The notes below the pieces were generated by a model, which was given only the letters and a program-made list of their open reading frames with translations, had not been told where the DNA came from and made no database searches. The position numbers were made by a program, and so were the translations under genes. Shown here one piece after another: positions 22,260-30,047 of a DNA stretch of 64,000 nt; position 1 is the stretch's first letter, and every line of letters starts with the position of its first letter. The DNA comes from Myxococcales bacterium (GTDB lineage: Bacteria; Myxococcota; Myxococcia; Myxococcales; Anaeromyxobacteraceae). Location of the stretch: positions 1 to 64,000 of the forward strand of contig JAJZQX010000016.1 of the NCBI GenBank assembly GCA_021806645.1, written 5' to 3'.

Positions 22260-23456
22260 TCAGCCCTTCTTCGCCCCGTCGAGCTGGCAGAGGAAGATGG
22301 GCAGCCCGAGCTTGTTGCCGTAGAGCGGCCGGTACCGGTCGGTGTTGTACATCGAGGCCACGTCCACCTTGCGCGGCCCCAGCCTCGGATCGGGGATGGA
22401 CACCAGCTGGTAGGTCCCTCCCACCAGCGCCGCCATCACGCCGCTCTTGCCGGCCAGGATGGCGTCGAGCGCCATGGTGCCGTAGGTGGAGGCCACCAGC
22501 TTGTCGATGAAGTCGGGCTCGCCGGAGCGCAGGTCGTAGGTCAGGTCGGAGACTATGGTCTCCTCGCCGGTCCGGCGGTGGAACTCCTCGGCCAGCACCT
22601 CGGCCACGCTGGCCTTGCGCCGGCGCCCGAAGGCGTCGGGCTGGCCATACTCCACCACCTGGTAGCCGTTCCAGGTCGCACCCTCGGAGAGGACGACGAT
22701 GGCGTAGTTGCTCGGGTTCCCGCGTTTCTCGGTCACCAGCAGGTCGATGAGCTTCTCGAGGTCAACCTTGAACTCGGGGATGACGCAGCGGTTGGAGGTG
22801 ACGTGGGCGGTGTAGAGGGCGGTGAAGCCGGCGTCGCGCCCGAAGACCCTGAAGATCCCGATCCGCTCGTGGGAGCCGACCGTGGTCCGCTGCCGCTCGA
22901 TGGCGTCGGTGGCGCGGGTGATGGCGGTGGAGAAGCCGATGCAGTACTCGGTGCCCTGCACGTCGTTGTCCATGGTCTTGGGGATGCCGATCACCTTGAC
23001 GCCGAGCGAGTTGAGCTGGGCCGCCGAGGTGAGCGTCCCGTCGCCGCCGATGCAGATCAGGTACTCGATGCCGAGCCGCTGGACGTTCTCGAGCACCTGC
23101 GGGGTGAGGTCCCAGGACGGGCCGTTCGGACCGGGCCTGGAGGGGATGCCGGCGTTGACCAGGTGCGGCGGGAGCTTCGTCACCTTGGACGGTCCGACGC
23201 GGCTGGTGTGCAGCATGGTGCCGCCCGACCGGTCGATGGTGCGGCAGTTCTCGCGGTCGAGCGGTACGATGTAGCGGGACGCGCTGGAGGGATCGTCGAG
23301 GTCCACATGGGTGAGCCCCTGGAAGCCCCGGCGAATGCCGACCACCTCGAGGCCGTTCTCCCAGCCGCGGTAGACGACGCTCTTTATCACCGAGTTGAGG
23401 CCGGGGACGTCGCCCCCGCCGGTGAGGATCCCTATGCGCTTGCGCTTCGCGTTCAT
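22260..23456 (-). CDS. pfkA: 6-phosphofructokinase
   Basis: Glycolytic kinase phosphorylating fructose 6-phosphate, 398 residues. The N-terminal 'IGILTGGGDVPGLNSVIKSV' is the nucleotide-binding start, 'YLICIGGDGTLTSA' the phosphate loop and 'IGIPKTMDNDVQGTEYCIGF' the catalytic Asp loop. The Gly in GGDGT (E. coli position 104) argues for ATP, whereas the Lys in PKTMDND (position 124) is seen in pyrophosphate enzymes and also in plant-type ATP enzymes, so ATP use is favoured but not certain. ATG 23456. It is divergent from the unknown 588-residue gene, with 173 bases between. Confidence 0.9.
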   Translation of the reverse strand: MNAKRKRIGILTGGGDVPGLNSVIKSVVYRGWENGLEVVGIRRGFQGLTHVDLDDPSSASRYIVPLDRENCRTIDRSGGTMLHTSRVGPSKVTKLPPHLVNAGIPSRPGPNGPSWDLTPQVLENVQRLGIEYLICIGGDGTLTSAAQLNSLGVKVIGIPKTMDNDVQGTEYCIGFSTAITRATDAIERQRTTVGSHERIGIFRVFGRDAGFTALYTAHVTSNRCVIPEFKVDLEKLIDLLVTEKRGNPSNYAIVVLSEGATWNGYQVVEYGQPDAFGRRRKASVAEVLAEEFHRRTGEETIVSDLTYDLRSGEPDFIDKLVASTYGTMALDAILAGKSGVMAALVGGTYQLVSIPDPRLGPRKVDVASMYNTDRYRPLYGNKLGLPIFLCQLDGAKKG

Positions 23457-23584
23457 GTGCCGAACTTAGCGCGAGTCTCGCCGGCCCGCTCCGAATCGGT
23501 GGCCTGGAGGCGTTCGCGCCTGCGCGCCGCGCTGCGCGGGGCCGGTGCCCGTGAATCGCGCACCCCTTCCGCGGTGGGGGCGGC

Positions 23585-23590
23585 TACAAT
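23585..23590 (+). promoter_or_regulatory. Possible -10 box for the 588-residue protein gene
   Basis: TACAAT stands out in otherwise GC-rich sequence, 40 bases before the ATG at 23630. No good -35 hexamer lies 16-18 bases upstream, so this is a weak promoter call. Confidence 0.3.
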
Positions 23591-23629
23591 GCCGCCTCCA
23601 ACGCAGTCCAGGCACCGGGACGACCCTCC

Positions 23630-25396
23630 ATGACCGACTTCGAGAAGCGCAACGTCATCGCGCAGTGGGCCTTCGACACCCGGCCCGTGCTGCTCCGCTT
23701 CCACCTCTGGCTGGAGGACGTCGAGGTGGAGCGGGCGCAGGCCGATCCGGTCAGTTCGCACAGCTTCACGCCGCGTGGCATCACCCGATGCCTGGCCGTG
23801 ACGGCCGCGGCCACCGCCCTCGGCACCAAGCTGTTCGGCGGCCACGGCGAGGGGAAGGGGAAGGACAAGCAGGGCTACAACCAGGCCAAGAAGGCGGCCG
23901 ACGCCATCAGCGCCTACGTGATGAGCGAGGGGCTCTGGCACCTGACGCGCACGCTGCCGGAGAACCACGCCATCATGGTCTCGCTGGGCGAGGGGCTGAT
24001 GCCCAAGGCCGGGGAGACGCCGGAGATGGGGGCCAACCCACTGCTCGGCTTCGGCCGCGTCTACGCCCGGCCCGAGGTGGCGCGCACCGTGGACCGCCGG
24101 GTGCGGCGGCTGCTCAACGAGCCAGGCCACACCTTCGCCCACTTCCACGGCTGGCTGAAGGAACGCGGCATCACCATCTGGGGCGCCGCCGTGGACACGC
24201 TGGAGTGCACCTCGCGCTTCGCCGAGGGGCAGGCCACCGGTCCGATGACCGTCTTCCACCTCTTCGACTCGCCGCTGCGGGTGGCCAGGCCCTACGAGTC
24301 GTACATGGGCTGCCTCACGGTGCCCCGCCGCGTGTGCGAGGCGGCCGAGCGGTCGGCCGTCCTGCTCGACTACCGGACGCCTCGGGCGCAGGTCGCGGAG
24401 GCCATCGAGGCCACCTACCCGGGCGTCGAGCGCAAGAACATCCACGTCTGGACGCTGGCCGGGAAGAGCCGCGTGAAGCGGCTCGGACAGCTATGGGAGG
24501 AGTGGAAGGCCACCGGGTGCCACCTGGTCGAGGACGGCTGGAAGGCCCCTTCCGGACACGCCGTCTTCACCGACTCGGGCACCTACGCCCCCACCTTCCT
24601 GGTCGGCAGCTGGAAGGACGCCGGCGGCGCCACCCACGTCTTCCTCTGCGACGGCTACGCCGCCACCGCCGAGGCCATGCAGGCCTCCAGCCTCTCCGAG
24701 GTGCTCGACGTCGACGCCAGCATGGCGATGTTCTCGCCCAGCTTCGAGCTGCCGTGCGCGCAGGAGGCCAAGCTGATGCAGCTCGACCCGAAGGCCCCCG
24801 ACTTCGGCGCCCAGGTGAAGGCGCTGCACGGCGGGAAGGAGCTCTCGCCCGCGCAGGTCGCCTCCTACGTCGAGGCCATCGAGGAGGCGCGCGCCTCCAA
24901 CATGCCCACGGGGCGCCACGTGCTCCACGCCGACGACTTCCTGCCGGAGAAGGACTGGCGCGTGCTCTCCTGCGTCGGCTACATGAGCGACGACCCGTAC
25001 ACCGGCGCGCCCGGGATCGAGAAGGTGGGGGAGGGCGTCTACAAGGTGACCACGCTGCTGGCCACTCGCGAGGCCTCGGCCCGCATCACCTTCACCTTCC
25101 GTTTCATGGAGCCGCTGGCGCAGGCCCGCCACGTCTTCAGCCCGCTGCTGGTCCGCTTCCTCTCAGGCGTCGATCACCGGACCCGGCCGGTGAAGATCTC
25201 GGACTCGGGGCGCATACGCAACGAGCTGCAGACCATGCTCTCGCAGGCGCTGGAGCACGACGGCGAGAACATCATCGTCCACTGGGACCGGATCGACGAG
25301 CGGGTCATGCCTCGCGACAAGCAGCTGGCCATCCGCGACGTGCTCGAGTGGTACAAGGCCAACCACCCGGTCTGGTTCGAGTGGCTCAAGCTCTAG
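23630..25396 (+). CDS. Large soluble protein of unknown function (588 residues)
   Basis: I do not recognise this protein. It has no signal peptide and no membrane helix, so it should be cytoplasmic. Composition and codon use are those of a normal expressed gene. It begins 'MTDFEKRNVIAQWAFDTRPV'. Notable stretches are an early Lys/Gly segment 'GGHGEGKGKDKQGYNQAKKA' (about residues 73-92), 'GHTFAHFHGWLKERGITIWG' (about 165-184), 'YESYMGCLTVPRRVCEAAER' (about 222-241), 'VGSWKDAGGATHVFLCDGYA' (about 323-342) and a polar C-terminal third ending 'NHPVWFEWLKL'. No P-loop, HExxH or Rossmann signature is evident. It may be multidomain. Divergent from phosphofructokinase and convergent with the PrpR-like regulator, so context gives little. 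Confidence 0.75.
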   Translation: MTDFEKRNVIAQWAFDTRPVLLRFHLWLEDVEVERAQADPVSSHSFTPRGITRCLAVTAAATALGTKLFGGHGEGKGKDKQGYNQAKKAADAISAYVMSEGLWHLTRTLPENHAIMVSLGEGLMPKAGETPEMGANPLLGFGRVYARPEVARTVDRRVRRLLNEPGHTFAHFHGWLKERGITIWGAAVDTLECTSRFAEGQATGPMTVFHLFDSPLRVARPYESYMGCLTVPRRVCEAAERSAVLLDYRTPRAQVAEAIEATYPGVERKNIHVWTLAGKSRVKRLGQLWEEWKATGCHLVEDGWKAPSGHAVFTDSGTYAPTFLVGSWKDAGGATHVFLCDGYAATAEAMQASSLSEVLDVDASMAMFSPSFELPCAQEAKLMQLDPKAPDFGAQVKALHGGKELSPAQVASYVEAIEEARASNMPTGRHVLHADDFLPEKDWRVLSCVGYMSDDPYTGAPGIEKVGEGVYKVTTLLATREASARITFTFRFMEPLAQARHVFSPLLVRFLSGVDHRTRPVKISDSGRIRNELQTMLSQALEHDGENIIVHWDRIDERVMPRDKQLAIRDVLEWYKANHPVWFEWLKL

Positions 25397-25417
25397 GGCG
25401 CGTCCGGTCGCCCCGCC

Positions 25418-27346
25418 TCAGCGCTTCGCCGCCAGCTTCCGGTAGAGCGTCGAGCGCCCCACCCCCAGCTTCCGGGCCGCCTCGCTCAGGTTGCCGCCGC
25501 ACTCCGCCACCACCCGCTCGACGTGGGCCTGCTCGCTGGCCTGCCGGGTGGCCCGCAGGTCGGGCTGCCGCACCGGCGCCACCCCGCCGTCGAGGAGCTC
25601 GGGGAGGGCGGCCCGCAGCTCGACGTCGAGCTGGTCGTCCGAGATGGCCCCGTCGGCGAAGAGCACCGCCACCCGCTCCAGCACGTTCTCCAGCTCGCGG
25701 ACGTTGCCGGGCCAGCCATAGGGCTCGAGCGCCGGCAGCACCCGGGCCAGGGCCCGGGCGTGGGCACCGGGAACGCCGTGGCGCGCCAGCACCCGCCGCA
25801 ACAGGTCGCTGGCGATGGCGGCCACGTCGCCGTGCCGATCCCGCAGCGGCGGCAGGTGGATGGGGAGGATGTGGAGCCGGAAGTAGAGGTCGTCGCGGAA
25901 CTGGCCGCCCGCCACCGCGGCGCGCAGGTCGCGGTGGGTGGCGGCGATGACGCGCACGTCGATGGGGGTCGGGTCGTTGCTGCCGAGCCGGAGCACCTGG
26001 CGCTCCTGCAGCACCCGCAGCAGCCGTGACTGGAGCGTGAGCGGCACGTCGCCCACCTCGTCGAGGAAGATGGTGCCGAGGTGGGCCGCCTCGAACAGGC
26101 CGGGCCGGCCGCCCCGCCGGGAGCCGGTGAAGGCCCCTTCCTCGTAGCCGAACAGCTCCGACTCGAGCAGCGTCTCCGGGAAGGCGGCGCAGTTGATGGC
26201 CACGAAGGGGCGGTCGCGCCGCCGGCCGGCCGCGTGGATCCCCTGCGCCACCATCTCCTTGCCGGTGCCGCTCTCTCCGGTGATGAGCACGGTGGCGTCG
26301 GTGCGGGCGTACCGCTCCGCCATGGCGCGCACCCCGCGGATGGCCGCCGAGTCGCCCACGATGGCGCCCAGGGTGTAGCGGGCCTCGAAGCGCGACGGCC
26401 GGTGCTGCGAGCGTAGCCGCCGCTCCAGCCGCTGGATGGTGGCGGCGTCCTGGCAGATGGTCATGGCTCCGCGCAGCGTGCCGTGATCGCGCAGCGGCGT
26501 CCGGCTCACCAGCAGCGAACGCCCGCCCAGCCGCTCCAGCGTGTCGGTTTCGGCGATCCCGGCCTCGAGCACCCGGGCCAGGCCGAGCGACGGGGCCACC
26601 GAGGAGAGCGTCCGCCCCAGCACCTCGACGGCCGGGAGCGAGAGGAGCCGCAGCAGGGCGCCGTTGGCGGAGAGCACGCGCTCGTCGAGGTCGACCACCG
26701 CGACGCCAGGCTCGAGCTGCTCTACGGCGAGCCGCAGGTGGTCGTGGCGGGCCGTGGCGGCGCGGGTGACGCGGGCGATCTCGATGGCCTGGCGGATGGC
26801 CTGGGCCAGGGAGTCCTGGCCGTAGAGCAGCACCGCCTTCAGGCCGGCCTGCTCGGCCAGGTCGCAGACCGGGCCAGGGCCGACGATCACCTCGACGCCG
26901 CGAGAGGCCAGGTCGAGCACCTGGGTCCGCGCCTCCTCGGGCGTCAGGTAGGGGCGCTGCTCCACCTTGGCGCCCGCCATGAGGAACCCTTCCCGGTCGA
27001 TGCCGGTCACCACCCGGGAGAAGTTGACGACGCCGATGCGGGAGGAGAACTGGCGCGCCCGCAGCAGCGCGCCGATGGTGTCGACGGTGGAGGCGCCCAC
27101 CACCACCACCGGCACGTCGGCGTGATCGCGCAGGTAGGCGCCGTTGGCGCCGGCCGCCACCAGGGCGTCCACGTGCTCGCCGGCGGCGCGCCGCGTCCGC
27201 AGCGTGGCCAGCGCCTCCTCGAAGCCTCCGTCGAAGACATGGACCTCGGCCTCCTCGGCCATGATCGGGGCCACGCTCTCGAAGGCGGAGCGGAGCCGGC
27301 TGGTGCTGAAGGCCCAGATGACGGGGCGGCGTTCGGAGGTCGGCAT
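25418..27346 (-). CDS. PrpR-like sigma-54-dependent regulator
   Basis: Enhancer-binding protein of 642 residues. The N-terminal 195 residues form a PrpR_N-type sensor domain ('RSAFESVAPIMAEEAEVHVF', 'DVPVVVVGASTVDTIGALL', 'GVEVIVGPGPVCDLAEQAG'), which in PrpR binds 2-methylcitrate and related ligands. A PAS-like segment follows (about 205-305). The AAA+ domain has Walker A 'GESGTGKEM' at Gly357, 'GAFTGS' for sigma-54 contact and '[11 protein letters not shown]' as Walker B. The C-terminal Fis-type HTH is 'LSEAARKLGVGRSTLYRKLA'. No prp genes are nearby; instead it diverges from a beta-oxidation operon with a sigma-54 promoter, its likely target. ATG 27346. Confidence 0.88.
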   Translation of the reverse strand: MPTSERRPVIWAFSTSRLRSAFESVAPIMAEEAEVHVFDGGFEEALATLRTRRAAGEHVDALVAAGANGAYLRDHADVPVVVVGASTVDTIGALLRARQFSSRIGVVNFSRVVTGIDREGFLMAGAKVEQRPYLTPEEARTQVLDLASRGVEVIVGPGPVCDLAEQAGLKAVLLYGQDSLAQAIRQAIEIARVTRAATARHDHLRLAVEQLEPGVAVVDLDERVLSANGALLRLLSLPAVEVLGRTLSSVAPSLGLARVLEAGIAETDTLERLGGRSLLVSRTPLRDHGTLRGAMTICQDAATIQRLERRLRSQHRPSRFEARYTLGAIVGDSAAIRGVRAMAERYARTDATVLITGESGTGKEMVAQGIHAAGRRRDRPFVAINCAAFPETLLESELFGYEEGAFTGSRRGGRPGLFEAAHLGTIFLDEVGDVPLTLQSRLLRVLQERQVLRLGSNDPTPIDVRVIAATHRDLRAAVAGGQFRDDLYFRLHILPIHLPPLRDRHGDVAAIASDLLRRVLARHGVPGAHARALARVLPALEPYGWPGNVRELENVLERVAVLFADGAISDDQLDVELRAALPELLDGGVAPVRQPDLRATRQASEQAHVERVVAECGGNLSEAARKLGVGRSTLYRKLAAKR

Positions 27347-27432: not shown

Positions 27433-27530
27433 GTCTGATGAGACACCGACTGCCACAATCAAGTCAAGACAGCCCCTGAAACGCTGTGACAATCAACAGA
27501 TGAGCGACTGACTCCATCATGCGAATCAAC

Positions 27531-27546
27531 TGGCCGACTCGTTGCA
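27531..27546 (+). promoter_or_regulatory. Sigma-54 promoter of the beta-oxidation operon
   Basis: TGGCCGACTCGTTGCA: GG and GC are ten bases apart and the TTGCA end is consensus. Transcription would begin near 27558, leaving a leader of about 66 bases before ATG 27624. Together with the divergent AAA+ regulator this makes activator-dependent control likely. Confidence 0.72.
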
Positions 27547-27623
27547 CATACTGGCTGGCTCAGGAATCCGCGCCCGGCGGCGCCGGTACAGCGACGTGGT
27601 CCGACATCACTGAAGGAGGCGAG

Positions 27624-30047
27624 ATGAGCGCGACGGTTGGCGGTTCGATCCCCCGGATCGACAAGGTGGCGGTGCTTGGCGCGGGCGTGATGGGTGGCAC
27701 CATCGCAGCCCATCTGGTGAACGCGGGCCTCAAGGTGCTGCTGCTCGACATCGTCCCCAAGGCGCCGACCCCCGAGGAGACCGCCGCCGGGCTGTCGCTG
27801 AAGGACGCCGTGGTCCGAAACCGGATCCCGGCCGCCGGCCTGGCCGCGCTCGAGAAGCTGAAGCCGTCGCCGGTCTTCCTGGCCGCCGACCTGGCCCGCA
27901 TCGAGGTGGGCAACCTGGAGGACGATCTCAACCGGCTGCGCGAGTGCGACTGGGTCATCGAGGTGGTGATCGAGAACATGGCCATCAAGAAGGCCCTCTT
28001 CTCCGAGAAGATCGCCCCCAACCTGAAGCCGGGGGCCATCCTCTCCAGCAACACCTCCGGCCTCTCGGTCAACGAGCTGGCCGACGCGCTGCCCGAGGCG
28101 CTGCGGCCGCGCTTCCTGGTCACCCACTTCTTCAACCCGCCCCGCTACATGAAGCTGCTCGAGATCGTCCCGAGCCGCTTCACCGACCCGGGCGTGGCCG
28201 AGGGGATGGCCGGCTTCATCCGCCGCCGGCTCGGCAAGGGGATCGTCTTCGGCAAGGACACGCCCAACTTCGTGGCCAACCGGATCGGCGTCTTCGCCAT
28301 CTGCAGCGCGGTGAAGCAGATGCAGGAGCTCGGGATGGACGTCGAGGAGGTAGACGCCGTGGCCGGCCCGGCCACCGCCCGCCCCAAGAGCGCCTGCTTC
28401 CGCACCGCCGACCTGGTCGGCATCGACACCCTCATGCACGTGGCGAAGAACTCCTACGACCTGCTGCCCAAGGACGAGCAGCGCGAGGTCTTCAAGCTGC
28501 CCGAGTTCATGACGCGGATGGTGCAGAAGGGGCTGCTCGGCAACAAGTCGAGGCAGGGCTTCTTCAAGAAGACATTCAGTAAAGAGACAAGGGGGGAGAA
28601 GCCCGAGACCTTCTTCTACGACTACCTGAAGGGGGAGTACGCGCCGGCGCGCCGGCCCAGGTTCGCCTCGGTGGAGGCCGGCAAGGGGATCGACGACCCG
28701 GCCAAGCGGCTGCGCACCGTGCTGGGGGGGAGCGACAAGGGGGCCCAGCTGGCCTGGCGCAACCTGCGCGACACGCTCATCTACGCCTTCAACCGGCTCC
28801 CCGAGATCGCCGACGACGTGGTCAACGTCGACAACGCCATGCGCTGGGGCTTCAACTGGGAGCTCGGGCCGTTCGAGATGTTCGACGCCATCGGCGTGGC
28901 CGAGTTCGTCAAGCGGGCCGAGGCCGACGGGGTGGCCGTGCCGGCCGCGCTGAAGAAGGTGGAGAGGTTCTACGCCTTCGAGAACGGCCTGAAGCGCCAC
29001 TTCGACGTGCTGGGAGGCGGCTGGAAGAACGTGCCGGTGCCGCCCGGGCAGGTCGACCTGGTGCTGCTGGAGAAGGCCGGCAAGGTGGTCGAGAAGAACT
29101 CGGGCGCCTCGCTCCACGACCTCGGCGACGGCGTCTTCTGCCTCGAGTTCCACACCAAGATGAACGCCATCGGTAACGACGTCCTCGCCATGGTCCACAA
29201 GGCGGTGCGGCGCGCCGAGACCGAGGGGCAGGGGCTGGTCATCGCCAACCAGGGGACCAACTTCTCCGTCGGCGCCAACCTGGCGCTGCTGGTGATGGCC
29301 ATCGCCGAGGGGGCCTACGACGAGGTCGGCCTGACGGTGAGCGCCTTCCAGAAGGCCATGATGGCGGTGAAGTACGCCCGCGTGCCGGTGGTGGCCGCGC
29401 CGCACGGCATGGCGCTGGGCGGCGGCTGCGAGGTCTGCCTCCACTCCGACGCCATCGTGGCCGACGCCGAGACCTACATGGGGCTGGTCGAGATCGGCGT
29501 GGGGTTGCTGCCGGCCGGCGGCGGCACCAAGGAGCTGGCGCTGCGCGCCATCCGGCTCGCCGACCAGTGGGAGACCGACGTCTCGCCCTTCCTCATCAAG
29601 AACTTCACCAACATCGCCATGGCCAAGGTGAGCAGCTCGGCCGCCGAGCTCTTCGGCATGGGGCTGCTGCGCCAAGGCGACACCATCACCCTCGGCGCCG
29701 ACCAGCTGATCCACGACGCCAAGCAGCGGGTGGTGGCGCTGGCGGCCAACTACCGCCCCTCGCAGCCGGCCACCGGCTTGAAGGCCCCGGGGCGCAGCGT
29801 CGCCGGCAGCCTCGGCTCCCAGCTCTGGAACATGCGCATGGGCGGCTTCATCACCGAGTACGAGGAGAAGCTCGGCAAGACCATCGCCCAGGTCATCACC
29901 GGCGGCGACGTGCCGGCCGGCACGGTGGTCACCGAGCAGTGGTTCCTCGACCTGGAGCGCGAGGCCTTCCTCAAGCTCTGCGGCGAGCGCAAGACCCTGG
30001 AGCGGATCCAGCACATGCTCAAGAAGGGGAAGCCGCTCCGCAACTGA
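27624..30047 (+). CDS. fadN: 3-hydroxyacyl-CoA dehydrogenase / enoyl-CoA hydratase fusion (FadN-like)
   Basis: Bifunctional beta-oxidation enzyme of 807 residues with the dehydrogenase first, as in Bacillus FadN and unlike E. coli FadB. The NAD-binding motif '[20 protein letters not shown]' is near residue 15, '[15 protein letters not shown]' and '[20 protein letters not shown]' (catalytic His) follow, then the second dehydrogenase domain to about residue 460. The C-terminal hydratase part includes '[13 protein letters not shown]' and '[19 protein letters not shown]' (oxyanion hole) and '[20 protein letters not shown]'. A strong site GAAGGAGG lies four bases before ATG 27624. First gene of a three-gene operon with thiolase and acyl-CoA dehydrogenase. 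Confidence 0.92.

Follow-up and report, generated by a model that had tools for sequence, protein, structure and literature searches.

The gene at positions 23630-25396 (+) of the window, by which we mean the whole 64,000-nucleotide stretch of DNA that was analysed, encodes a 588-residue protein (hereafter P0001) whose predicted structure has the GlpX fold and which we read as a metal-dependent phosphatase of sugar bisphosphates, most probably a fructose-1,6-bisphosphatase (FBPase) of gluconeogenesis; we put the probability of this reading at about 70%. We infer its substrate, its metals, the direction of the reaction and the role of its C-terminal module. PMC4535450 distinguishes five sequence-defined FBPase classes and gives GPM2 of M. 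tuberculosis as an example of an unexpected FBPase. We also favour, with fair but limited assurance, the wider view that P0001 founds a sixth class of FBPase sequences, in which a GlpX-fold core of about 450 residues is joined to a unique C-terminal module. This class would have passed between phyla. Many Acidobacteriota, 'Rokubacteria' and Planctomycetota and some Anaeromyxobacteraceae would have no other FBPase, and in some carriers the ordinary GlpX would be decaying to an inactive partner. If true, Pfam and NCBIfam have missed a further FBPase family, which would close a gap in the central metabolism of soil bacteria in whose genomes neither a class I nor a class II FBPase is seen and would correct the metabolic models of such bacteria. 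An FBPase of this kind was not found among the literature matches listed, which does not prove that none is in print.

The gene and its sequence family

The open reading frame (ORF) of 588 codons starts with ATG and corresponds exactly to 23630-25396 (+) in the ORF listing of the window. In most aligned relatives the start differs from that of P0001 by no more than a few residues, and their ends coincide with its own. Other long ORFs overlap the gene on both strands (e.g., 23545-25950 + and 23453-24445 -) and resemble the shadow ORFs of GC-rich genes. The family alignment comprises 71 rows, 62 of them distinct, with identities to P0001 of 53-89%; of the positions occupied in at least 65 of the 71 rows, 125 show no variation. 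Because the relatives are full-length and free of internal stops, and because of this degree of identity and the number of unvarying positions, the gene is real and strongly constrained, beyond chance. A preliminary description of the DNA was therefore right to call the 588-residue protein well maintained, and equally so in denying it a membrane segment, since its highest 19-residue Kyte-Doolittle mean is 1.2 and no strongly hydrophobic, membrane-type segment is present.

Sequence searches place the protein in no named family. At E <= 10 P0001 matched nothing in Pfam, NCBIfam or PHROGs, and 37 family members compared with Pfam and NCBIfam gave nothing better than E 0.0059. The weak matches of these members concern unrelated families, most frequently PF25718 (11 members, best E 0.0059), with PF00578 in 7 of the 37 (best E 0.0075), while the class II FBPase profile PF03320 is absent among their matches at E <= 1. 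FBPases of class I (PF00316), III (PF06874) and V (PF01950) convert fructose-1,6-bisphosphate (FBP) to F6P, a reaction presumed to be common to P0001, and neither P0001 nor the 37 members match any of these three profiles. Among PDB sequences, P0001 found three chance-level matches (best E 0.64) and the family profile found none.

P0001 differs from the class II enzymes in having no PF03320 match and in its length of 588 residues as compared with 336 for E. coli GlpX. It is only 15-19% identical to GlpX chains in VIA-align structural alignments, unlike GlpX proteins among themselves, whose mutual identity, according to PMC10289334, is at least 50% in over 100 species. Judged by sequence, the P0001 family is a separate, unnamed family and not a member of class II, because of profile, length and identity. 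The preliminary description had spoken of a protein with no recognisable family, for which it proposed profile and structure searches, phylogenetic spread and gene neighbourhood as checks. As far as Pfam, NCBIfam and PHROGs are concerned its statement stands, but the fold of the predicted model is recognisable as GlpX; the kind of finding that it had said would count against it, an unambiguous match to a family already characterised, exists for the predicted model in its structural match to this class II FBPase.

Predicted fold, active site and C-terminal module

An AlphaFold2 model of P0001 built on a 13-row alignment reached a pLDDT of 81.6 and a pTM of 0.81. The mean pLDDT values of the five models were 81.6, 77.7, 69.9, 66.0 and 65.6, two of them being at or below 66. 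In a Foldseek comparison with the PDB, all 24 matches at E <= 0.001 were class II FBPases, including dual FBPase/SBPases (E 6.6e-13 to 4.8e-8, probability 1.00), and cyanobacterial GlpX-fold enzymes titled FBPase/SBPase were among the best of them. For the last of the 24, 1ni9, whose title reads simply 'glycerol metabolism protein', we assume GlpX. VIA-align found 17 class II FBPase entries at Z 21.4-25.4, headed by E. coli GlpX 2r8t (Z 25.4, rmsd 3.7, 314 residues, 18% identity, model residues 47-492). The region that superposes on GlpX (PF03320; E. coli 2r8t/3d1r, M. tuberculosis, F. tularensis) extends over residues 46-492, with insertions (23765-25105, +). The Li+-sensitive phosphatases SuhB, SAL1, Hal2p, IMPA2 and INPP1 come next and superpose only partially, over 138-198 residues at Z 6.6-9.8, a much weaker and shorter match than that of GlpX. 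The fold of P0001 is predicted to be that of class II FBPase GlpX, and it is this predicted fold that argues for homology, with the catalytic motifs as support.

That the model misleads, and that P0001 is a truly new fold or a scaffold with no relation to phosphatases, is hardly credible. The lack of any significant sequence link to a family and a model built from 13 sequences could be cited in its favour, but they have to be set against a GlpX fold reaching Z 25.4 over a background of 9.8 and below, and against a collinear sequence alignment that keeps the catalytic motifs in register.

This alignment was obtained by comparing the P0001 family with a GlpX profile made from 26 fetched GlpX sequences and that of E. 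coli; it is collinear and covers both proteins. The catalytic residues given for E. coli GlpX in PMC5892879, a study of M. tuberculosis GlpX, are D33, E57, D85, E88, T90, Y119, K164, R166, D188 and E213. Seven of these ten published residues pair with identical residues that are invariant in 71/71 rows, namely (GlpX/P0001) E57/E121, D85/D189, E88/E192, T90/T194, Y119/Y225, R166/R284 and E213/E348, and the motifs GEG, VD-x-[IL]-E-x-T, YM and [AP]E[AG] are found in both proteins. E121 lies in LGEG, which is followed by the invariant-rich loop LMPKAGETPEMG (residues 119-141; 23984-24052, +). The pLDDT is below 50 at 120-141, and the mobile loop after GEG recalls the weak GlpX density in F. tularensis, reported for Gly56-Met65 in one chain in PMC10289334. 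D189, E192 and T194 belong to AVDTLECT (residues 187-194; 24188-24211, +), equivalent to GlpX AVDPIEGT with the proline of VDPIEGT replaced by threonine. Y225 (24302-24304, +) stands in SYMGCL, aligned with GlpX MYMEKL, and E348 in DGYAATAEAMQ (residues 341-351; 24650-24682, +), aligned with GGAPEGVVSAA. R284 closes the segment KSRVKR (residues 279-284; 24464-24481, +), where the register is uncertain.

To the three remaining GlpX residues the profile alignment gives no conserved counterpart: D33 falls on D79, which is aspartate in 57/71 rows only, K164 on V282, a varying position, and D188 on W304. Inspection by eye suggests other pairings for two of them, with KNTAD/KKAAD bringing D33 onto D91, and KPR/KSR bringing K164 onto K279 and R166 onto R281. 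KKAAD (residues 87-91; 23888-23902, +) would be the counterpart of GlpX K29-D33, in a register that we infer, and its K87, K88 and D91 are invariant in 71 rows; in KSR (279-281), the alternative to K164-P-R166, R281 is invariant and K279 is present in 62/71 rows.

The score of the profile alignment is not significant, as 8/100 column shuffles, done only for the larger family alignment setting, reach the real value of 21.4 (shuffle mean 17.2); one reversed profile scores 15.6 as compared with 21.4. Local profile-profile settings gave single-comparison E values of 0.014 (one setting), 0.087 (three) and 0.096 (the larger family alignment), and in two global runs, with 11 and 27 GlpX sequences, the aligned part was limited to about 25 residues.

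P0001 probably works like a class II FBPase. On the analogy of GlpX, Mg2+/Mn2+ at the 1-phosphate would be held by E121, D189, E192 and E348, the attack would involve T194 at a helix N-terminus, and the sugar and the 6-phosphate would be bound by Y225 and the basic residues around 279-284. The preliminary description had imagined an active site made from His/Trp/Cys-containing stretches, for which there is no support: the match to a known active site is through Glu, Asp, Thr, Tyr and Arg residues. Its suggestion of a new enzyme or scaffold survives in its first half, an enzyme being probable and a scaffold less likely.

Compared with GlpX, P0001 has about 250 extra residues in total; some 45 precede the core, 96 follow it, and others are inserted after E121 and around 361-440. 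The 96 form a C-terminal module (residues 493-588; 25106-25393, +), and a separate fold prediction for residues 489-588 alone was confident (pLDDT 88.2). A fold search with this module gave no match better than Foldseek E 1.6 and VIA Z 3.5, which does not make its fold a new one. Within the module, the stretch SDSGRIRNELQT (residues 524-535; 25199-25234, +) is almost unchanging in the 71-row alignment, and 11/15 positions are invariant at 521-535, the least variable among the tallied stretches. Such near fixation suggests a regulatory or subunit-contact function. One could go further and consider P0001 a GlpX-fold protein that is regulatory or has lost its catalysis, acting as a sensor or as a subunit of a larger complex, as the large extra module with its nearly fixed stretch and the occurrence in two carriers of a GlpX that has lost catalytic residues might suggest. 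However, nothing would keep catalytic residues in place in an enzyme without activity, and with seven catalytic positions invariant in 71/71 rows we regard this as highly improbable.

Spread and gene neighbourhood

Relatives of P0001 occur in 38/195 Myxococcota genomes, in 29/297 genomes of an Acidobacteriota sample (the phylum sample around G200, a Vicinamibacteria metagenome-assembled genome, MAG) and in 5/199 genomes of a Planctomycetota sample (that around G201, a Planctomycetota MAG). Twelve loci of a species-genome collection also carry one, in records titled Anaeromyxobacter, Myxococcales, 'Rokuibacteriota', Acidobacteria, Vicinamibacteria and Planctomycetota. The carriers outside Myxococcota number 38, comprising the 29 and 5 genomes of the two samples and 4 'Rokubacteria'. 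The spread proposed as a check by the preliminary description therefore covers Myxococcota, Acidobacteriota, Planctomycetota and 'Rokubacteria'. The window's own genome has one match to P0001. All matches at E <= 0.001 are strong, the weakest being a fragment at 8.4e-89, so that no twilight group of paralogues is seen. The plasmid collection gave no match, and no relative was confirmed in viral contigs scanned with six peptide patterns.

In a tree of the 62 distinct rows, the 'Rokubacteria' form a single clade (support 100/100) nested within a group that is otherwise mostly Anaeromyxobacteraceae. The Acidobacteriota rows are scattered over several places, which amounts to 8 changes, at least 5 of them forced by well-supported branches. 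This mixing of phyla in the tree may reflect transfer between phyla or some errors of MAG binning. The copies in the 'Rokubacteria' MAGs (L004, L006, L007 and L010) are 75-77% identical to P0001.

The divergent neighbour of the P0001 gene (22260-23456, -) encodes a phosphofructokinase (PFK; PF00365, E 1.3e-68) with the motifs GGDGT and PKTMDND. The glycine at that place of GGDGT presumably points to ATP rather than PPi as the donor, and with ATP as donor the step would need a separate FBPase. A related PFK gene lies within a few kilobases in 4/40 neighbourhoods (39 places; BLAST clustering). Three of these, the window, L002 (G053) and L012 (G051), belong to one genus and the fourth, L046 (G102), whose PFK also matches PF00365, to another family; at L012 and L046 another ORF separates the PFK gene from the P0001 relative. 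All four PFK-linked genomes are without FBPases of classes I, II, III and V. G040 and G034 also lack the four classes, yet no PFK is present in their neighbourhoods. No neighbour is conserved across the family in the 40 neighbourhoods read, and gene context alone is insufficient to give a function.

On its other side, the P0001 gene is adjacent to a gene for a sigma-54 activator of the PrpR type, which carries a PrpR_N sensor domain (25418-27346, -), from which a gene for a 3-hydroxyacyl-CoA dehydrogenase/enoyl-CoA hydratase fusion diverges (27519-30047, +). The locus beside the P0001 gene is of the fatty-acid oxidation type.

Other FBPases in carriers and non-carriers

GlpX (PF03320) was detected in 147/195 Myxococcota genomes, class I FBPase (PF00316) in 13/195, class III (PF06874) in 3/195 and class V (PF01950) in 5/195 (G033, G035, G039, G155 and G156, three of which are Anaeromyxobacteraceae). 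PMC4535450 describes the class V FBP aldolase/phosphatase as associated with thermophiles. In the window's genome, which is 98.99% complete, PF03320, PF00316, PF01950 and PF06874 were all not found. The 38 Myxococcota carriers divide into 26 with GlpX, one more with class I (G008), one more with class V (G039) and ten with none of the four classes (G000, G051, G053, G034, G040, G048, G049, G050, G102 and G007). All four classes are likewise missing from 28/157 Myxococcota non-carriers, of which some are incomplete and others may use a PPi-PFK or something else.

Within Anaeromyxobacteraceae, 22/24 genomes carry the gene and the two without it have GlpX (G052) or class I (G041). All eight members of the family that lack the four classes are carriers (8/8), although absence of the four classes is not a significant predictor of the gene there (p 0.54, Fisher, kinship ignored). 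Neither does absence of GlpX predict the gene across Myxococcota, with 12/38 carriers as against 36/157 non-carriers lacking it (p 0.30, Fisher, kinship ignored).

Outside Myxococcota, where classes I and II were searched, GlpX is present in 6/38 carriers and class I in 2/38, and neither class was detected in 30/38. The non-carrier control concerned class I in the Acidobacteriota sample only: class I occurs in 2/29 carriers as against 80/268 non-carriers (Fisher one-sided p 0.004, kinship ignored), or p 0.006 if the 77 non-carriers over the family cut-off are counted instead of 80. The carrier and class I searches are taken to cover the same sample because both comprise 297 genomes and the handles shown agree. 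On these gene counts, the P0001 family is perhaps the only FBPase in many carriers.

The same distribution bears on the main competitor of an FBPase assignment, a GlpX-fold phosphatase whose principal substrate is not FBP but sedoheptulose-1,7-bisphosphate, another sugar bisphosphate or some other phosphometabolite. The retention of GlpX in those 26 Myxococcota carriers would fit such a different job, as would the FBPase/SBPase titles of the cyanobacterial enzymes mentioned above and the lack of a clear counterpart for GlpX D188, which belongs to a motif said in PMC10289334 to bind the ring hydroxyls. On the other hand, those 30 carriers outside Myxococcota in which no class I or II FBPase was found speak against it, and the one metabolic neighbour noted, PFK, is found beside the gene in two bacterial families. 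A main substrate other than FBP appears unlikely on balance, and we retain FBP as the more probable substrate.

GlpX active sites were read at 26 loci of the 153 GlpX-positive genomes, in addition to E. coli. Of the six GlpX proteins from carriers outside Myxococcota, two have lost catalytic residues and the other four are intact. One of the two, in the acidobacterial genome G644 (L141:1401-2489, -), shows D33G, E57V, D85K and T90S and is encoded divergently, 77 bases from the P0001 relative (L141:2567-4336, +); by its sequence, this degenerate GlpX is a possible inactive partner or relic. The other, in the carrier genome G415 (L132), shows D33N, D85N, E88D and T90A. In the GlpX of G033 (L103), asparagine takes the place of Tyr119 and the active site is otherwise intact.
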